Shown one piece after another: positions 3,206-12,003 of a DNA stretch of 42,581 nucleotides; within the stretch, counting starts at the first letter, position 1, and each line of letters opens with the position of its first letter. Source of the DNA: Actinomycetota bacterium (GTDB taxonomy: Bacteria; Actinomycetota; Coriobacteriia; Anaerosomatales; Anaerosomataceae); assembly GCA_004348925.1 (NCBI GenBank), contig RCMX01000002.1, positions 216,299 to 258,879 on the forward strand, written 5' to 3'. The position numbers were made by a program, and so were the translations under genes. The notes below the pieces were generated by a model that made no database searches, was not told the DNA's origin, and was given only the letters and a program-made list of their open reading frames with translations.

Positions 3206-3218
3206 GAACATATGTTCG
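3205..3218 (+). promoter_or_regulatory. LexA (SOS) operator of ruvCAB
   Basis: TGAACATATGTTCG contains the perfect 12-bp palindrome GAACATATGTTC (3206-3217). This fits the Gram-positive LexA/DinR box CGAAC-N4-GTTCG. It directly follows the -10 box and covers the predicted transcription start, an effective position for repression. It precedes the Holliday-junction genes, a known SOS target class. Confidence 0.85.
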
Positions 3219-3247
3219 ATTCGCCACGTGGGGAGAGGGAGCGCGCG

Positions 3248-3739
3248 TTGATCATCCTCGGCATCGACCCTGGTCTCGCGAACACGGGATGGGGCGTCAT
3301 CGAGACGTCTGGCTCGCGCTTCAGATGCGTCGCGTACGGGTGCATCACCACCGACGGCGCGATGGCGCTTCCTTCACGACTTGCCCGGATCCACGAATCG
3401 CTGAGCGAGGCGGTGGCGAAGTACCGCCCGGACGAAGCGGCGATCGAAAGCGTCTACTTCTCTAACAACGCGAAGTCAGCGTTCGCCACCGGGCAGGCGC
3501 GAGGCGTCGCCATCCTTGCCGCGCATGGTGTGCCCCTCGGGGAATACGGTCCCGGCGAGATCAAACTGGCGGTGGTCGGCGCCGGTGATGCGGACAAGCA
3601 CCAGGTGCAGTACATGGTGCGCGTGGTGCTCGGCCTGAAGGACGAACCCAAGCCGGATCACGCTGCCGACGCGCTTGCCGCAGCGATCTGCCATGCCAAC
3701 AGCCGTACGCGCACCTCGTTGGCCGGGGCGGCGTCATGA
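3248..3739 (+). CDS. ruvC: Holliday junction resolvase RuvC
   Basis: RuvC is the RNase H-fold endonuclease that cuts Holliday junctions brought to it by RuvAB. The sequence shows the acidic active site: GIDPG with Asp7, IESVYF with a glutamate, and the C-terminal DHAADALA with the last aspartates. The TTG at 3248 is preferred because GGGAGAGGG lies at 3231-3239 and because it yields MIILGIDPG, the usual family N-terminus (163 residues). An in-frame ATG at 3212 would add 12 residues but has no ribosome-binding site, and it lies inside the LexA operator at the predicted transcription start. ruvA overlaps by four bases. Confidence 0.94.
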   Translation: MIILGIDPGLANTGWGVIETSGSRFRCVAYGCITTDGAMALPSRLARIHESLSEAVAKYRPDEAAIESVYFSNNAKSAFATGQARGVAILAAHGVPLGEYGPGEIKLAVVGAGDADKHQVQYMVRVVLGLKDEPKPDHAADALAAAICHANSRTRTSLAGAAS

Positions 3740-4326
3740 TCGCTTTCCTCACAGGTCGGATCGCCGAGAAGGGCGCAGGTCACGTCGTGCTCGACGTCGG
3801 CGGCGTCGGTCTCAGGGTCGCGATGTCGACCGGGTCGATCGCCGCGCTGCCCGCCGAGGGCGATTCGGTGACGGTACGCACGCACCTGCAGGTGCGGGAG
3901 GACGAGCTCTCGCTCTACGGTTTCGAGAACGCCGATGAGAAGTCGCTCTTCGAGAAGCTCATCACCGTGAGCGGCGTCGGGCCCAGAGTCGCGCTGTCCG
4001 CGCTCTCCTCGTTCCGGTCCGCTGCGCTGGCCGAGGCGGTCGCGCGCGAGGACGTGGGGCTCCTGAGTTCGATTCCGGGTGTAGGGAAGAAGACGGCGCA
4101 GCGCATCATCATCGAGCTGAAGGACAAGCTCGGGGTTCCGGATCTCGCCGCTGCGACTTCGGGTGCAGGCGCGAGCACGCATGCCGAGGCACGCGATGCG
4201 CTTCTCGGCATGGGATTCTCGGCGGCCGAGGTCGCCACCGCGCTCGACAGGTACGAGGGTGATCCCGAGAACAGCCAGGCGCTGCTCAAGCATGCGCTCC
4301 GTCGACTCGGGGGAGGCGTCTCGTGA
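3736..4326 (+). CDS. ruvA: Holliday junction branch migration protein RuvA
   Basis: RuvA binds the four-way junction and loads the RuvB motor. The 196-residue protein starts with the OB-fold ([13 protein letters not shown]), followed by two helix-hairpin-helix motifs ([14 protein letters not shown] and [14 protein letters not shown]). After a flexible linker comes domain III, which contacts RuvB ([16 protein letters not shown]). The ATG overlaps the ruvC stop as ATGA, and the stop overlaps the ruvB GTG start as GTGA, indicating translational coupling of ruvC-ruvA-ruvB. Confidence 0.97.
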
Positions 4327-5387
4327 GCACCGTGTGGGAAGACGACTCGTGGACGCCGCCCGAGAGCGAGCGGCTGGTCTCGGCGGAGCATACCGAAGAC
4401 GACCTGGAGATCGACCGCAATCTACGTCCGAAGCGACTGCAGGAATACCTGGGGCAGACCCGCGTGAAGGAGAACCTCGGCGTTCTCATCGACGCCGCAC
4501 GCGCTCGCGACGAGGCGCTCGATCACATCCTGCTCTCGGGACCGCCGGGTCTGGGCAAGACGACGCTCGCAGGGGTCGTCGCGGCTGAACTCGGCGTGCA
4601 GCTCAAGACGACGAGCGGGCCGGCGATCGAGCGCGCGGGCGACCTTGCTGCGATCCTCACGAACCTGGAAGAGCGGGACGTGCTCTTCATCGACGAGATC
4701 CACCGGCTCAATCGAGCCGTGGAAGAAGTCCTGTACCCGGCGATGGAGGACTTCGCCCTCGACATCATCATCGGGAAGGGGCCGGCTGCGCGCTCGCTGC
4801 GGCTTGATCTGCCTCGCTTCACGCTTATCGGCGCCACGACGCGCACCGGGCTGCTCACCGGACCGCTGCGTGACAGATTCGGAATGGCGTTCCGGCTCGA
4901 CTACTACACACCGATCGAGCTCTCGGAGATCGTTCGTCGATCGGCCGCGATCCTCGGCGTTCCCGTGACCGATGATGGTGCCAACGAGATCTCGAGACGC
5001 TCGCGGGGAACGCCCCGGCTGGCAAACCGGCTGCTCAAGCGCGTACGCGACTACGCGCAGGTGCGCCACGACGGGCAGATCACCGAGGATATCGCCGCGG
5101 AGGCACTCGCTTTCTTCGAGGTCGACCACGTTGGCCTTGACCGCATGGACCTCGCCATCCTGGAGACGCTGGCGACCAAGTTCGGCGGGAGGGCCGTCGG
5201 ACTCAACACGCTTGCGGCCGCAGTCAGCGAAGAGACCGACACGCTTGAGGATGTCTATGAGCCGTACCTGCTGCAGCTCGGCTTCATCGTACGCACGCCG
5301 AAGGGGCGTCAGGCGACAGCGAGGGCATACGCGCACCTCGGGCTTCGTGCGCCAGCCGATGAGCCCGCCCAGGACGGCCTGTTCTAG
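4323..5387 (+). CDS. ruvB: Holliday junction ATP-dependent DNA helicase RuvB
   Basis: RuvB is the AAA+ hexameric motor for branch migration. The 354-residue sequence has the family start of the core ([12 protein letters not shown]), Walker A GPPGLGKT (residues 73-80), Walker B with DEIH (124-127), sensor motif IGATTR, the arginine-finger region GPLRDRFG, and a C-terminal winged helix ([13 protein letters not shown]). It begins at a GTG that overlaps the ruvA stop by four bases. The following membrane-protein gene starts three bases after this stop, so it may be co-transcribed and thus share the LexA-controlled promoter. Confidence 0.97.
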
Positions 5388-5390
5388 GTC

Positions 5391-6500
5391 ATGGGGTCGG
5401 TGAAGCAGCCACGTGCCATCACGTCGCAGCCGCTGTGGGTGCGCGTCGACCAGAACCGTATCAAGCTGGGCATCTTCGTCGCGCTGTTCGTCATCGGCTC
5501 AGCGCTGCTGCTCGCGATAGCGTTCGTCTACGTCCCCGGGGGGCTGATCGGGCTTGCGCTGTCGGTCGCCGAGACCGCGGATATGGCCGCTTACTGGGCA
5601 GGGTTGCTGAAGGTGTTCCTGACCGCACTCGCGCTGCTGCTGGCCGCAGGTGCGCTCGCCTCGGCGGTGCAACTGGCGAATGCCGAGGAGTGGATCCGCA
5701 ACAGATTCGGCGGAAGCGACCTTGGGCCCGCCGATGAGGCAGCGCTCGCTGGAGCGCTCGGCGACATGACGATCGCGGCAGGTCTGGCGTCCGTGCCGCG
5801 CCTGATGCTGCTCGACTCGGACAGCGTGAACGCGTGCGCGATCGGCATCAGCCGCACACAGCCGATGATCGGCGTAACACGCGGCCTCCTTGCGGCGCTC
5901 GATGCCGACCAGCAACGCGCCGTGCTCGCGACCCTCGTCGCGCGTATCCGCGGCGGCGATATCCTGATCGGTACCGCGATGGCAGCGCTCATGGGACCGC
6001 TGAAGGCCGTCCGCGAGTCGAGGCATGCGGCCGGCGGCGCCGCGCTCGGGTGCGCGGATGCCGGATGCTCGAACCCCGGATGCATGGACGACGGATGCGG
6101 GTGCCTGTTCGACGGACTCGGTGATTCTGACGCCGCTGGCGGGTGTCTCGGGGCTATCGGCCTCGCGGTCTTCGCCGCGATCGTGGTGGCGCTCACGTAT
6201 GCCGCTGTCGTCTCGGCAGGGTGGATCGTCACGGCCTGGGGTCGCGCGATCCATCGGACGGGACACGAGAAGGCGGACGCGGAAGGCATGCTGCTGCTCA
6301 AGGATCCATCGCCGATGTTGTCGGCGTTGCGCATCGCGATCACGTCATCCAACGAGATCGCCGACGGCGACGCATCGTACGACGGGATCTTCTACGTCTC
6401 CACGAGCGGGAAGCCCGCAGTCGACCGAGCGGAGCGGCGGCGATTCGATCGCCTGCGTGAAGTACTCGGCACCGAGGGGCTCGCCGCCGGACCCGTGTAG
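5391..6500 (+). CDS. HtpX-like (M48) membrane protein lacking the zinc-protease motif, with cysteine-rich insert
   Basis: This 369-residue protein has two N-terminal membrane segments (about 27-50 and 76-98) and one or two near residues 245-278, the topology of HtpX. The stretch VPRLMLLDSDSVNACAIG, followed by IGVTRGLLAAL, aligns with the HtpX region before its active site. Where HtpX has AHELSH, this protein reads ATLVAR (TLVAR at 181-185), so both zinc histidines and the catalytic glutamate are gone. The later ExxAD-type ligand site is HEKAD. A cysteine ladder follows at residues 221, 226, 231, 236 and 238. The protein is probably a non-proteolytic M48 relative, perhaps a scaffold or metal or redox sensor. 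The start is uncertain because no clear ribosome-binding site is seen. Confidence 0.75.
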   Translation: MGSVKQPRAITSQPLWVRVDQNRIKLGIFVALFVIGSALLLAIAFVYVPGGLIGLALSVAETADMAAYWAGLLKVFLTALALLLAAGALASAVQLANAEEWIRNRFGGSDLGPADEAALAGALGDMTIAAGLASVPRLMLLDSDSVNACAIGISRTQPMIGVTRGLLAALDADQQRAVLATLVARIRGGDILIGTAMAALMGPLKAVRESRHAAGGAALGCADAGCSNPGCMDDGCGCLFDGLGDSDAAGGCLGAIGLAVFAAIVVALTYAAVVSAGWIVTAWGRAIHRTGHEKADAEGMLLLKDPSPMLSALRIAITSSNEIADGDASYDGIFYVSTSGKPAVDRAERRRFDRLREVLGTEGLAAGPV

Positions 6501-6663: not shown

Positions 6664-9600
6664 ATGTTGAGTCGTCCTCATCCGTCCCGCCGTTGGTGGA
6701 GCCTCGTGCTCTGCATCGCGCTCGTCGCGAGCATGAGCGGATTCACATCCGCAGCCGGCGCGCCCCCGACGACGGCCGTCGTGCCCAAAGCCGCGAGGAC
6801 GAGCGTGACGTCGGGTTCCACCGACATCAGGAGCGCGAAGATGGATTCGCGGCTCAGTGACATCGCTTCTGCTGCCAAAGACGCTGCGTCCAAAGCCAAG
6901 TACGTCGACGTGGCGGTCCTGGTAGCAAAGGGCGGAAACGCCCCGAAAGGCCTCGAACAGGGTGTCAAGATCAAGCTGCGAGCGGACACCGCCAACGACC
7001 TGTGGGCCGGACGCGCCAAGGCGGGCAATCTCGTGAAGATGGCTTCCGAGAAGCAGGTCACGCAGGTGTTCGAGAACGGTCACCGGGAAGCGCCGCCCGT
7101 TCCCGACGAGCAGACCGTGCCCGCATCGGCGCGACGCACCGCCGCGCTTGAGGCGAAGCAACGCCTTGATGAAGCACGGACGACGGGTGCTCTCGATGCG
7201 TTCGCAGCCCAGTTCGATGGCTCGACCGGCGTCAAGGTGCCCGGGCTGGATGACGGTGCGGCTACCGGCTGGTGGGATGTGGGCGCGTCGGGCCACAACT
7301 CCGCCGGCGCGTGGGCGCAAGGCTATGACGGCACGGGTGTTCGCGTGGCCGTCGCCGATGACAGCGTCGACTTCGCGCATCCGGATCTGATGGGGACCCA
7401 GGCTGTGGTATCCGACCCTTCGTCCCCGTACTACGGCTGGCCCGAGGCGCTCGACCCGTTCTCGACCCTGTTGTATGCGTACGACGCCCTCTACGGGACG
7501 ACGTACGTGGAAGACGGACAATCGTGGTTCACCGATAGCTCGGCCACAGTGACGGAAGGATCCCCGGTCTTCGGCGGCTCTTCGGACTGGGCACTGACCG
7601 GAACGAGCGTGTCCGGCACGTACCACATGGGCTACCTGTGGGACGAGAACCTCGACGCCTGGTGGTGGGGCTATCCTGCAGTGCTTGTCGTCGACGAGAC
7701 CACCGCCGGCGTCTACGACACCGTCTACGTCGACCTTGATATGGATCACGACTTCACGAATGACAAGCCATGCACGAAGGCGGACCCGATCTCGTACCTG
7801 GATTTCTGGGACAGCGAGGCCGGCGTGATCGGACAGGACGGCTACGCCGATCTCTCGGGAGGGATGGTCTACTGGATCGCCGATGGAACCAATCAACCGC
7901 CAGGTTATGACTTCATGATCGGTGCGCCTGCGGGGGCGCCGGAGTCCGGCTGCCTGGTTGCCTTCATGGGTGCGCTCGACTTCGATTCGAACCACGGCAC
8001 GCTCTGTGCCTCGAATGTCGTCGGCCAGGGGGTGATCGACGGACCCTCCGACGCGATCGTAGACGGAGGTTCCTATCCGCCATTCAAGACGCCTGTCGGG
8101 AGTGGTGCGGGAATCGTGCAGGGTGCGGCGCGTGACGCTGATCTGGTCGCGATGTCGGACATCTACTGGAACCATTTCACTTCGACGCTGGTCGCCTATG
8201 ACTACGCCGCCTTCGGCCTGGATGAGACGCCCGGTACCACCGATGACATCCAATGCGTCTCGAACAGCTACGGCGAATCGGATGAGGATGCCGACGAGTG
8301 GGATTACCGGTCTCGCTACATCACATACCTCAACACCGAGGTGAACCCGGAGGTCACGTACCTCTTCTCCACGGGCAACGGCGCCCCCGGCTACGGCACG
8401 AGCGCACCACCGACGCCGGCTACCGGCATCGGAATCGGTGCATCGACGCAGATGGGTGCGTGCGGCGGCTGGGACTCGATCCTTGATGCCGATCAAGTGA
8501 ATGTCGGGGATGTGATCCCATGGTCGAACCGGGGTCCGTCTGCTGCAGGGCATCTTGGACCCGCGGTCGTCGCGGATGGAGCGTATTCCTCCGGCGCGTT
8601 GGCGCTCAACCAGGGCGCAGGCGACGGATGGCGTTCCTGGGAAGTCTGGGGCGGGACGAGTCGTTCGTGCCCGGTCGCCACGGGAAACCTGGCGTTGGTG
8701 TTCGAGGCCTACAGGGACTCGAACGGTTCATGGCCTACGTGGGATGCAGCTCGCGACGTGCTCATGAACGGCGCCACAGACCTCAACTACGACACGTTGA
8801 CGCAGGGTTCGGGGATGATCGACGCGGCGCGCTCGGTCTCGCTGGCTGCGGGCAACGGTGGGCTCGCAGTGTCGCCGGCTGTGTGGTACCCGGGCGACTA
8901 CCGTGGTGATCGCATGGTCTCGTACGTCAACCTCATGCAACCCGGCGAGACGTTCGATGACCACATCACGGTCACGAACACGGGGAGTGTCTCGGCCAAT
9001 GTCACGGTTAGCGATTCGTGGCTGCAGCTCGACAGCGTCGAGACGACCACCATCACGTTGACCGGCGCGAGCGAGTCGGCATATGACTTCAACCGACCGG
9101 ATGTCTTGCGGGATATCACCGCGTTGGTGAATGCCGCCGACGCGGACCTCATGGTGATCAAGGCCGACGAGGCATATGCGCAATTCGCCCCGACGCGTTC
9201 GTTCAGTACGCACAGCTCCACTCACAACGTGCCGCGACTACTCGTGTACAACTGGAAGGATCAGAACGGCGACGGTCGCCTGTGGACCGACTCGAACACG
9301 AACGGCTTCGTGAACGCGGGCGAGATCCAAACCGGCGAGTATATGCGCTTCACCTACGCGAACAACTTCGCCGACAGCCAGCAGGTTCGCGTGCAGCGCC
9401 CGCAGGACCGCAGCCTTGATGGCGTGTTCCTCGGCCTGCAGCACAGCAGCCGCGCCACGGCGTCGCCGACAGTGGACGTTCAGATCAGCATCGAGTTCTG
9501 GTCTCGTTCCGACCAGCCATGGCTCTCGGCCGGCGCCACCGATTTCGCGCTCGGTGCCGGAGCGTCGCAGGATGTGCCGGTGACCGTCGAGGTACCGGGC

Positions 9601-12003
9601 GATGCGCCCGTCGGCATCTACGAGGGTGAGTACCGGGTCGATGATGGCCTTAACGTCACCGTGGTGCCGGTCCACATCAACGTGGCTGCATCGGGCACGA
9701 ACTTCGAGTTCGGCGACGTGGTCGGCGCACCGGAATCGCTCATGCCGAACGGCAAGGTGTTCGGCTATCAGGACTGGAACTGGCGCGCCGAGTCTGGCGA
9801 CTGGCGCTTCTTCATGACCGATGTCGAGCAGCCGCTTCCGGATGGCGCCGTCTGGCTCGTGCATACCGACTGGCCGGATGTCGGGGCGCCTTCGTCCATG
9901 CAGGCCGACAACGATACGCTGCTCTTCGGCACGACGCCGGACGAATTCTCGGATGCTCTGCCGCAGACGTTCGGTCCGGGTACGCTCGCGTATACCGGAG
10001 GGTCGCCCAACATGAACACCGCGGGCGGCGTATGGCTTCCACAGACGAATACAGGGACGACGTCGGAATGGGTCGCAGCTCCCCTTGGCAGCGGCCTCAA
10101 TCAGATCATGATCCACAACGTCGTCTGGCCCGGCTCGGTGAGCGAACTCTCCTTCACCGGTGAGGCCGGGATGGCAACGGTCGCTCCTTCACGTCTCGAC
10201 CTGGTCGACTCTGCCGATTACGGCTCCGCCACGATCGACTTCGCGACCACGCTCGCGCTGAGCGGCGCGTCCGCGGAGGCGTATGGACTCTCCAAGACGT
10301 TCGAGGGCACGTACTCGGTAGGGCAGAACTCGGTGTGGGTGCACGACGTCACAGTTGCGCATGCCGCTTATCTCGAGGCGACGACGTCGGGGACGGACTC
10401 GGACGTCGACCTGTACGTGTTCGACGGCAACGACAATCTGATCGGCGCTTCGGAGTCGAGCTCCGGCGATGAGTACGTTCGCATCGACCTGCCTGCTGAC
10501 GACACGTACAGCATCCAGGTCTTCGGCTACAGCGTCGTGGGCGGCACGGACGACTTCGACGTCAGGATCGCCTCGCCGATGGGCAACGACCTGAGTCTGT
10601 CCGGGATTCCCGAAGGTCCGATCTCCGCTGATAGCACGTTCACGCTTGACGTGGACTGGACGAAGGTTCGCTCGGGCGGGCTGACCGACCGCGAGGGAAC
10701 GTTCGAGGGACTGGTGGTCCTCGGTCCTACTGAGGCGCCATCAGCGATCCAGGTGCCGGTGTCGCTGCGCTATCCGTTCGAGGTCGAGTACGCCACGCCG
10801 ACGGGTGCGGACACCGTTGACACGCCGAACCCCCCGATCGTCATCAGGTTCTCGAAGCGCGTCGATCCGGGTACGCTCACCGACGCGACCGTGTACGTCA
10901 CGGACGGGTCGGACGTGATCGGCACGCAGCGCGTCTACACCGACTCGACGGCGACGCTGGAGCTCACGCTTGAGGAGCCGCTGGCATCGAGCACCGAGTA
11001 CTCGGTCATGATCGACGGCGTTGGCTCGGTCGATGGCGATACGCTCACCACCACGTGGACGTTCTCCACGATGGATTCGGTGAAGCGACTCGCCGGCACA
11101 GACCGGTACAAGACGGCCGTCGCGGTGAGTTCCGAGAACTGGGACGCCTCGGAGGTGGTCGTGCTTGCTACGGGCGCGCAGTTCCCCGACGCGCTTGCGG
11201 CCTCAGGTCTGGCCGGAAGCTACGATGCTCCGTTGTTGCTCACGCGCCCCGACTCGCTCCTCACATCCGTCAGAGATGAGATCGTCAGGCTCGGAGCGTC
11301 CAACGTCATCATCATCGGCGGCACGGCCGCGGTCTCCGCACACGTCGCGACCGCCGTCGATGCCATACCGGGCGTGACGATCTCGAGGATCGCGGGTGTC
11401 GATCGCTACGACACCGCCGCACGTGTCGCGGCGCAGGTGCAGGCACGTGAAGGCGATCCGGCAGCAGTATATGTGGCTCGAGGCGACGACTTCGCTGACG
11501 CGCTCGCGTGCTCGCCGTACGCCTTCTCGCACCGGATGCCCGTACTACTTACCCGACCCGGTTCACTTCCCGGCTACACGAAGTCGGCTATACAGACCCT
11601 GGGCACCTCCAGTGTCCTTCTCGCCGGGGGGAGTCCGGCCGTCTCACCCTCGGTCGCTTCAGCTATCGATGCGCTGCCGGGCGTGAGCGTGACGCGCCTC
11701 GCGGGCGGCAATCGCTATGCGACCGCCGGTGTCATCGCCGAGGACGCCGTCGCCAGGGGATGGGCGTCATGGACAAACGTCGGCATCGCGACCGGGTTGG
11801 ACTTCCCCGATTCGCTCGTGGGAGGAGCGGCCACGGGGCGTCGCGGAGGCGTGCTGCTCATGACCGACCCCAGGAATCTGAGCGGCGCCACCCGTGCGGA
11901 GATCCTGCTGCACGGAAGCGCGATCGTAAGGATCGACATCTTCGGCGGAACGTCTGTCGTGTCGTCCGGTGTAGCAGCGGAACTCGGGTCGCTGCTTTGG
12001 TAG
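6664..12003 (+). CDS. secreted subtilisin-like (S8) serine protease with PPC, Ig-like and CWB2 cell-wall-binding repeats
   Basis: The 1779-residue exported protease starts with a signal peptide (basic RPHPSRRWW, then a hydrophobic run to about residue 35). The S8 domain carries Asp232 (AVADDSVD), His444 (NHGTLCA) and Ser666 (GGTSRSCP), plus an oxyanion Asn in STGNGAPG; a long insertion separates Asp from His. Downstream come beta-rich segments, a PPC domain (DSDVDLYVFD to YSIQVFGYS, about residues 1215-1310) and an Ig-like Big_5 domain (IVIRFSKRVDPGTL). Three CWB2 repeats run from about residue 1473 (VKRLAGTDRYKTA) to the end and should bind a secondary cell-wall polymer. GGGGGAAGG precedes the ATG. 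The triad is complete, so an active wall-anchored protease is expected; substrate unknown. Confidence 0.93.
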   Translation: MLSRPHPSRRWWSLVLCIALVASMSGFTSAAGAPPTTAVVPKAARTSVTSGSTDIRSAKMDSRLSDIASAAKDAASKAKYVDVAVLVAKGGNAPKGLEQGVKIKLRADTANDLWAGRAKAGNLVKMASEKQVTQVFENGHREAPPVPDEQTVPASARRTAALEAKQRLDEARTTGALDAFAAQFDGSTGVKVPGLDDGAATGWWDVGASGHNSAGAWAQGYDGTGVRVAVADDSVDFAHPDLMGTQAVVSDPSSPYYGWPEALDPFSTLLYAYDALYGTTYVEDGQSWFTDSSATVTEGSPVFGGSSDWALTGTSVSGTYHMGYLWDENLDAWWWGYPAVLVVDETTAGVYDTVYVDLDMDHDFTNDKPCTKADPISYLDFWDSEAGVIGQDGYADLSGGMVYWIADGTNQPPGYDFMIGAPAGAPESGCLVAFMGALDFDSNHGTLCASNVVGQGVIDGPSDAIVDGGSYPPFKTPVGSGAGIVQGAARDADLVAMSDIYWNHFTSTLVAYDYAAFGLDETPGTTDDIQCVSNSYGESDEDADEWDYRSRYITYLNTEVNPEVTYLFSTGNGAPGYGTSAPPTPATGIGIGASTQMGACGGWDSILDADQVNVGDVIPWSNRGPSAAGHLGPAVVADGAYSSGALALNQGAGDGWRSWEVWGGTSRSCPVATGNLALVFEAYRDSNGSWPTWDAARDVLMNGATDLNYDTLTQGSGMIDAARSVSLAAGNGGLAVSPAVWYPGDYRGDRMVSYVNLMQPGETFDDHITVTNTGSVSANVTVSDSWLQLDSVETTTITLTGASESAYDFNRPDVLRDITALVNAADADLMVIKADEAYAQFAPTRSFSTHSSTHNVPRLLVYNWKDQNGDGRLWTDSNTNGFVNAGEIQTGEYMRFTYANNFADSQQVRVQRPQDRSLDGVFLGLQHSSRATASPTVDVQISIEFWSRSDQPWLSAGATDFALGAGASQDVPVTVEVPGDAPVGIYEGEYRVDDGLNVTVVPVHINVAASGTNFEFGDVVGAPESLMPNGKVFGYQDWNWRAESGDWRFFMTDVEQPLPDGAVWLVHTDWPDVGAPSSMQADNDTLLFGTTPDEFSDALPQTFGPGTLAYTGGSPNMNTAGGVWLPQTNTGTTSEWVAAPLGSGLNQIMIHNVVWPGSVSELSFTGEAGMATVAPSRLDLVDSADYGSATIDFATTLALSGASAEAYGLSKTFEGTYSVGQNSVWVHDVTVAHAAYLEATTSGTDSDVDLYVFDGNDNLIGASESSSGDEYVRIDLPADDTYSIQVFGYSVVGGTDDFDVRIASPMGNDLSLSGIPEGPISADSTFTLDVDWTKVRSGGLTDREGTFEGLVVLGPTEAPSAIQVPVSLRYPFEVEYATPTGADTVDTPNPPIVIRFSKRVDPGTLTDATVYVTDGSDVIGTQRVYTDSTATLELTLEEPLASSTEYSVMIDGVGSVDGDTLTTTWTFSTMDSVKRLAGTDRYKTAVAVSSENWDASEVVVLATGAQFPDALAASGLAGSYDAPLLLTRPDSLLTSVRDEIVRLGASNVIIIGGTAAVSAHVATAVDAIPGVTISRIAGVDRYDTAARVAAQVQAREGDPAAVYVARGDDFADALACSPYAFSHRMPVLLTRPGSLPGYTKSAIQTLGTSSVLLAGGSPAVSPSVASAIDALPGVSVTRLAGGNRYATAGVIAEDAVARGWASWTNVGIATGLDFPDSLVGGAATGRRGGVLLMTDPRNLSGATRAEILLHGSAIVRIDIFGGTSVVSSGVAAELGSLLW

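Follow-up and report, generated by a model that had tools for sequence, protein, structure and literature searches.

Gene content of the locus

According to our analysis, the window, that is, the whole 42,581-nucleotide stretch of DNA analyzed here, carries on its forward strand the gene order ruvC-ruvA-ruvB followed by a gene encoding a relative of the membrane peptidase HtpX, which we call pseudo-HtpX. Judging from their translations, ruvC occupies positions 3212 to 3739 (+), with a likely true start at about position 3251 as read from the sequence, ruvA occupies 3736 to 4326 (+), and ruvB occupies 4323 to 5387 (+), its stop lying 3 bases before the start of the pseudo-HtpX gene. The latter (5391 to 6500, +) starts with ATG and encodes 369 amino acids, predicted to form four membrane helices. 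The same genome encodes an intact HtpX with the motif HELSH about 7 kb upstream of pseudo-HtpX, just beyond the window. A homologue search covering one genome per species plus 119 relatives yielded 22 distinct orthologues sharing 53 to 89% identity, the window copy counted (family A), and 34 paralogues, mostly with 31 to 39% identity (family B).

M48 membership and predicted structure

The original prediction had recognized an HtpX signature around a lost active site, and all three motifs concerned, NACAIG, IGVTRGLL, and RGGDIL, are read in the translation. The Pfam Peptidase_M48 profile (PF01435) scores the protein at 25.6 bits (E value, 1.2e-5), above the curated cut-off of 20.3 bits, which places it inside and not outside M48. 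Its NCBIfam matches are all HtpX models, the best of which, at 55.3 bits, is far below the equivalog cut-off of 355.

An AlphaFold model of pseudo-HtpX, built from an alignment of 55 sequences, reached a pLDDT of 87 and a pTM of 0.81. Foldseek alone returned no match to it below an E value of 0.001, the best being 6e-3 and the top rows being ZMPSTE24 and HtpX. A second structural aligner gave Z scores of 12.9 to BepA, 12.7 to the HtpX domain 3cqb (96 residues, 2.5 Å), 12.0 to ZMPSTE24 (6bh8), and 11.2 to BlaR1, with unrelated helical rows at about 7; a model of family B matches the same M48 set by structure. The hydropathy peaks and the model helices fit the four-helix layout of HtpX, of which TM3 is marginal (1.3). 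The edge-strand motif VNACAIG (residues 146 to 152; positions 5826 to 5846, +), equivalent to N-A-F in BepA and HtpX, is retained, with a beta strand modeled at residues 148 to 151 and with its Asn and Ala kept in all rows of families A and B readable there. The A-D helix is kept as well, as is the VT-x-G motif. The ORF, the Pfam score, and the predicted fold thus agree on a real gene of the M48/HtpX fold, as had been claimed: pseudo-HtpX is, by profile and model, a homologue within the M48 superfamily, with the M48 core fold as its predicted structure.

Loss of the catalytic and zinc-binding residues

In the alignment with the HtpX of the same genome, the place of HELSH is taken in pseudo-HtpX by TLVAR (residues 181 to 185; positions 5931 to 5945, +). 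This replacement of HEXXH, already noted in the original prediction, is no sequencing slip, since HEXXH is missing from 22 of 22 family A orthologues (window copy counted) and from 34 of 34 family B paralogues. At this place the consensus is [TAPM]-L-x-[AS]-R in family A and N-L-x-[AS]-R in family B, so that all 56 sequences have Leu for the catalytic Glu and Arg for the second His. The third zinc ligand of HtpX, the Glu of E-x-x-A-D located 3 residues ahead of the Ala of the A-D motif, falls within the segment HEKADAEGM (residues 292 to 300; positions 6264 to 6290, +), where the alignment puts His292 at the ligand position. The corresponding column holds His or Tyr in family A and Ala or Ser in family B when read in ungapped register, although a one-residue gap would bring into line the invariant Glu293, which stands one residue past the third-ligand position. 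We considered Glu293 as a retained third ligand and dropped it, since the ungapped register gives His292 there. Together with Arg185, Asp296, and Glu298, Glu293 is invariant in 55 sequences of families A and B. On these alignments, pseudo-HtpX is almost certainly no zinc protease and, HEXXH and the third ligand having both been checked and found absent, it stands outside the HtpX protease family.

A conserved clade under purifying selection

Compared with its four nearest orthologues, the window copy shows a dN/dS ratio of 0.08 to 0.14 over the whole gene, and neither the pseudo-active region nor the Cys region exceeds about 0.14, which indicates that family A is under purifying selection. The expectation that conservation keeps the frame open is borne out by this ratio and by the 22 orthologues with an open frame, and the survey of orthologues, which might have exposed a decaying copy, turned up none with HEXXH. 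Since a clade that is conserved and under purifying selection lacks the catalytic residues throughout, pseudo-HtpX is, as far as comparative evidence tells, a pseudoprotease.

A few further M48 paralogues of the order (family C; loci L090 to L094, L096, and L097) mostly keep the first His, as HLVAR or HLIAR. Paralogues of this kind, with the first zinc His only, occur at L091 (1055 to 3358), L092, L093, and L096, some of them in tandem; they look like a possible half-way state of inactivation. In a tree built after removal of the five HEXXH columns, families A, B, and C are split from true HtpX (SH-aLRT, 96) and family A forms one clade (SH-aLRT, 94), while some family C rows are long-branched, so their exact position is unsure. 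Families A and B thus appear as an old, conserved clade of inactive M48 relatives.

The family B gene of the same genome (C2:220699 to 221688; locus L079:7646 to 8752) reads NLMAR and lacks the Cys cluster described below. Behind it come genes for a trypsin-like secreted protease (Trypsin_2) and for a beta-propeller protein of PQQ/BamB-like type; the propeller gene follows family B in about half of its loci. Like this copy, the family B genes of loci L018 to L047 lie inside the histidine operon, downstream of hisI/hisE and ahead of trpE.

Distribution in the order

Confident members of these families are confined to one order of Coriobacteriia, three oddly labeled contigs aside, and related records are labeled Coriobacteriia or Anaerosomatales (OPB41), the latter being the likely order of the window. 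The exceptions are family B genes on contigs labeled Geobacter (L043, nearly identical to L039), Aeromicrobium (L047), and Slackia (L032), records which are probably mis-binned or mislabeled. In a phylum-wide profile search, 439 to 470 bits were reached only within the family of the window copy itself; beyond the order, scores went no higher than about 103 bits, and the loci inspected there (L084 to L089) encode ordinary HEXXH proteins.

Of the order's 69 genomes, 22 carry family A; these are scattered over 11 of its 16 families, and about two thirds of the genomes are without it. This scatter fits an ancestral gene that was lost many times. In a genome of the same genus (G001), no remnant of pseudo-HtpX was found between ruvB and the next gene; since the gene is missing from most genomes of the order and even from this close relative, its distribution marks it as dispensable. 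Directly after pseudo-HtpX, the window encodes a secreted 1,779-amino-acid subtilase that bears CWB2 cell-wall repeats as well as a Big_5 domain (6664 to 12003). This subtilase gene keeps its place behind ruvB in relatives lacking pseudo-HtpX; in G001 it directly follows ruvB instead, and we dropped it as a candidate partner of family A since it sits behind ruvB there without family A too.

The Cys-rich loop between the predicted helices TM3 and TM4

Translation and alignment place a loop rich in Cys, Gly, and Asp between the predicted helices TM3 and TM4, with C221, C226, C231, C236, C238, and C252 (positions 6051 to 6146, +). The ladder C-x4-C-x4-C-x4-C-x-C lies at residues 221 to 238 with exactly the spacing originally described, C252 being an addition to it; if Cys makes up 1 to 1.5% of residues, the probability of six Cys in the 47-residue loop is about 1e-5 to 1e-4. 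All 22 family A proteins have 4 to 8 Cys in this loop, compared with 0 to 1 in the 34 family B proteins and none in five true HtpX proteins, in keeping with the statement that HtpX lacks such a ladder. C238 and C252 are invariant in family A, and C226, C231, and C236 are nearly so. Conservation among orthologues therefore holds for the presence of the Cys cluster but not for the ladder as such, whose exact spacing is found only in the five closest sequences, window copy included. Since inactivation is common to paralogues without the Cys cluster, it is older than the cluster, the two being separate events.

The loop is 41 to 61 residues long and varies in the spacing and parity of its Cys residues, odd numbers (5 and 7) being among those seen. 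On this variation we rejected a fixed metal motif, and it speaks equally against obligatory disulfide pairs; with composition conserved and geometry not, we consider a defined site of zinc finger-like or Fe-S type unlikely. In the model, the loop has a pLDDT of about 52 and no defined site. It may instead serve loose metal binding, redox chemistry, or contacts with other molecules as a surface. The original prediction of a protease converted into a noncatalytic, metal- or redox-responsive protein hence stands for the loss of the catalytic residues in a protein kept by selection, and not for the metal or redox response, given the varying number and spacing of the Cys residues. The loop is predicted to face outward on account of its acidic charge (7 D/E, 2 K/R) and the positive-inside rule, and thus most likely lies on the side of the membrane opposite the pseudo-active site.

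The ruvCAB operon and its LexA-type box

A LexA-type box, GAACATATGTTC (3206 to 3217), is the sole exact GAACN4GTTC in the window and lies about 40 bases ahead of the likely ruvC start. A box of this type occurs 37 to 55 bases before ruvC in 11 of the 11 loci for which ruvC was available (two of them reading GAACATACGTTC), and in each of these it is the single exact GAACN4GTTC within 8 to 18 kb. Such a box also precedes ruvC in a genome without family A (L113). The lexA gene of the same genome carries a box of the same type, CGAACACGTGTTCG, which precedes the part coding for the HTH by about 107 bases. Genome-wide, the exact pattern CGAACN4GTTCG showed no enrichment (9 occurrences versus 18 for the reversed pattern), so that it is the conserved position that carries the argument. 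The LexA of Streptomyces venezuelae binds to tCGAAC-N4-GNNCGa and has RuvC and RuvA among its core targets (PMC9380542). From its position, the box very probably controls ruvCAB, and control of the operon by LexA in particular is likely.

Of the 22 family A loci, 17 have a same-strand ruvB upstream; in 11 of them the two ORFs adjoin or overlap, and in six loci the gap from ruvB to pseudo-HtpX is 0.36 to 0.84 kb. At L007, L017, and L060, no ruvB was detected within 0.8 to 1.5 kb of flanking sequence. A same-strand ORF of about 120 amino acids lies between ruvB and pseudo-HtpX at L008 (7128 to 7484) and L013, and the L008 copy had no Pfam match. Around the pseudo-HtpX gene, we found neither a sigma-70-like promoter nor a terminator-like site and, given this and the 3-base gap, we infer that pseudo-HtpX rides on the ruvCAB transcript. 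The proposed co-expression with an SOS-controlled operon is accordingly well supported, both by the box at every ruvC locus available and by ruvB lying directly or closely upstream in most family A loci.

Proposed role and alternative explanations

We propose that pseudo-HtpX is a pseudoprotease, expressed along with ruvCAB, that holds on to membrane clients and leaves them uncut, a reading to which we assign a probability of roughly 0.45. According to this proposal, a LexA-controlled promoter would yield, upon DNA damage, a transcript carrying ruvCAB together with pseudo-HtpX. The protein, its zinc site and catalytic Glu gone, would grip extended polypeptides by the M48 edge strand, and on the cytoplasmic side it would bind membrane or membrane-inserting proteins. 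It might then hold, sort, or shield these clients with no cutting, as a chaperone, an adaptor, or a decoy beside intact HtpX, and the Cys/Asp/Gly-rich loop on the outer face could provide a branch-specific contact or metal-binding surface. In BepA, substrate is contacted by the edge strand N105-A106-F107, which the chaperone-like and the proteolytic activity both require (PMC8423444). A role in holding or guiding is suggested since pseudo-HtpX has kept the gripping strand and lost the zinc chemistry, and the strand serves the chaperone-like activity in BepA. SOS induction, topology, client binding, and the role of the loop are all inferred; client holding taken by itself is a tentative step, somewhat short of an even chance. 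The most inclusive version, an order-wide family of dead HtpX proteins with one branch in the SOS ruvCAB operon, clients captured by the edge strand, and the Cys loop as sensor or anchor, seems rather doubtful to us.

Pseudo-HtpX might alternatively regulate intact HtpX, through mixed complexes or competition for substrates, and so tune membrane proteolysis during damage. The same genomes do carry a gene for intact HtpX, some 7 kb upstream, and the tuning of active partners is a common role of pseudoproteases, as with ClpR/ClpP and iRhom/ADAM17; however, the pseudo-HtpX gene neither adjoins htpX nor is co-transcribed with it, and the family B copies reside in an unrelated operon, so we consider this explanation unlikely.

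SOS-induced membrane inhibitors of division occur in other bacteria. Pseudo-HtpX could likewise be a DNA-damage checkpoint protein that, once induced, delays septation by binding to the division machinery, a reading which looks quite improbable. The LexA-type box and the ruvCAB operon would agree with it, and LexA regulons often hold species-specific checkpoints (PMC9380542). A dispensable, lineage-specific gene would also suit, as such checkpoints tend to be of this kind, but paralogue B belongs to an operon for amino acids. Moreover, the known SOS division inhibitors are small and not M48-like.

No more probable is a metal or redox sensor, in which the Cys/Asp-rich outer loop would bind iron or zinc, or form disulfides, and signal via the helices. 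The abundance of loop Cys in every family A protein, compared with the near absence in paralogues, and the invariance of C238 and C252 are in its favor, and iron-reducing anaerobes are among the cultured members of the likely order (PMC9686372). The varying spacing and number of the Cys residues, odd numbers included, and the low-confidence loop without a defined site weigh against it.

That pseudo-HtpX is still an enzyme, with a new catalytic site formed from Arg185, Glu293, Asp296, and Glu298, would account for the invariance of these four residues in families A and B, but it is highly improbable since no metal-ligand set is left and C-type paralogues vary at Glu293. A decaying or misread htpX copy would explain the missing catalytic motif, but can safely be dismissed in view of the 22 open-frame orthologues, their dN/dS of 0.08 to 0.14, and the invariant residues at the lost motif.

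Comparison with known systems

Pseudoproteases are known in several families, among them ClpR, FtsHi, and iRhom. In the papers searched, a set to which subscription papers and preprints were mostly external, we found no HtpX/M48 pseudoprotease clade, and a 2024 review of inactive metallopeptidases mentions neither M48 nor HtpX. Two stable paralogues, in the SOS and his-trp operons, together with the half-way HLVAR proteins, make the loss of the zinc site traceable step by step. If the most inclusive version of the proposed role is true, DNA damage would be linked to membrane-protein quality control by a nonproteolytic member of a protease family.

The chloroplast FtsHi proteins (M41) are likewise relatives of membrane zinc proteases that have lost HEXXH and kept a function (PMC8197885, PMC11266112); they differ in belonging to M41 and in keeping their AAA+ ATPase engine, whereas pseudo-HtpX has no ATPase. 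The iRhoms resemble it as membrane pseudoproteases with a new extramembrane region which act by binding clients (PMC6451368), but they are animal proteins of the rhomboid (serine protease) family. With HtpX (MEROPS M48B), pseudo-HtpX shares the fold, the predicted four-helix layout, the NA-x-x-x-G edge strand, VT-x-G, and the A-D motif; it is distinguished by the missing HEXXH, the missing in-register third-ligand Glu, the extra Cys-rich loop, and a score of 55 bits against the NCBIfam cut-off of 355. Escherichia coli BepA matches the core fold with a Z score of 12.9, and its N-A-F strand holds substrate uncut (PMC8423444). BepA, however, is periplasmic, active, and equipped with a TPR domain, and its chaperone-like state depends on a His switch, whereas in pseudo-HtpX catalysis appears lost outright. 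The family also makes it testable whether the M48 fold can purely hold membrane proteins, as BepA does in part.
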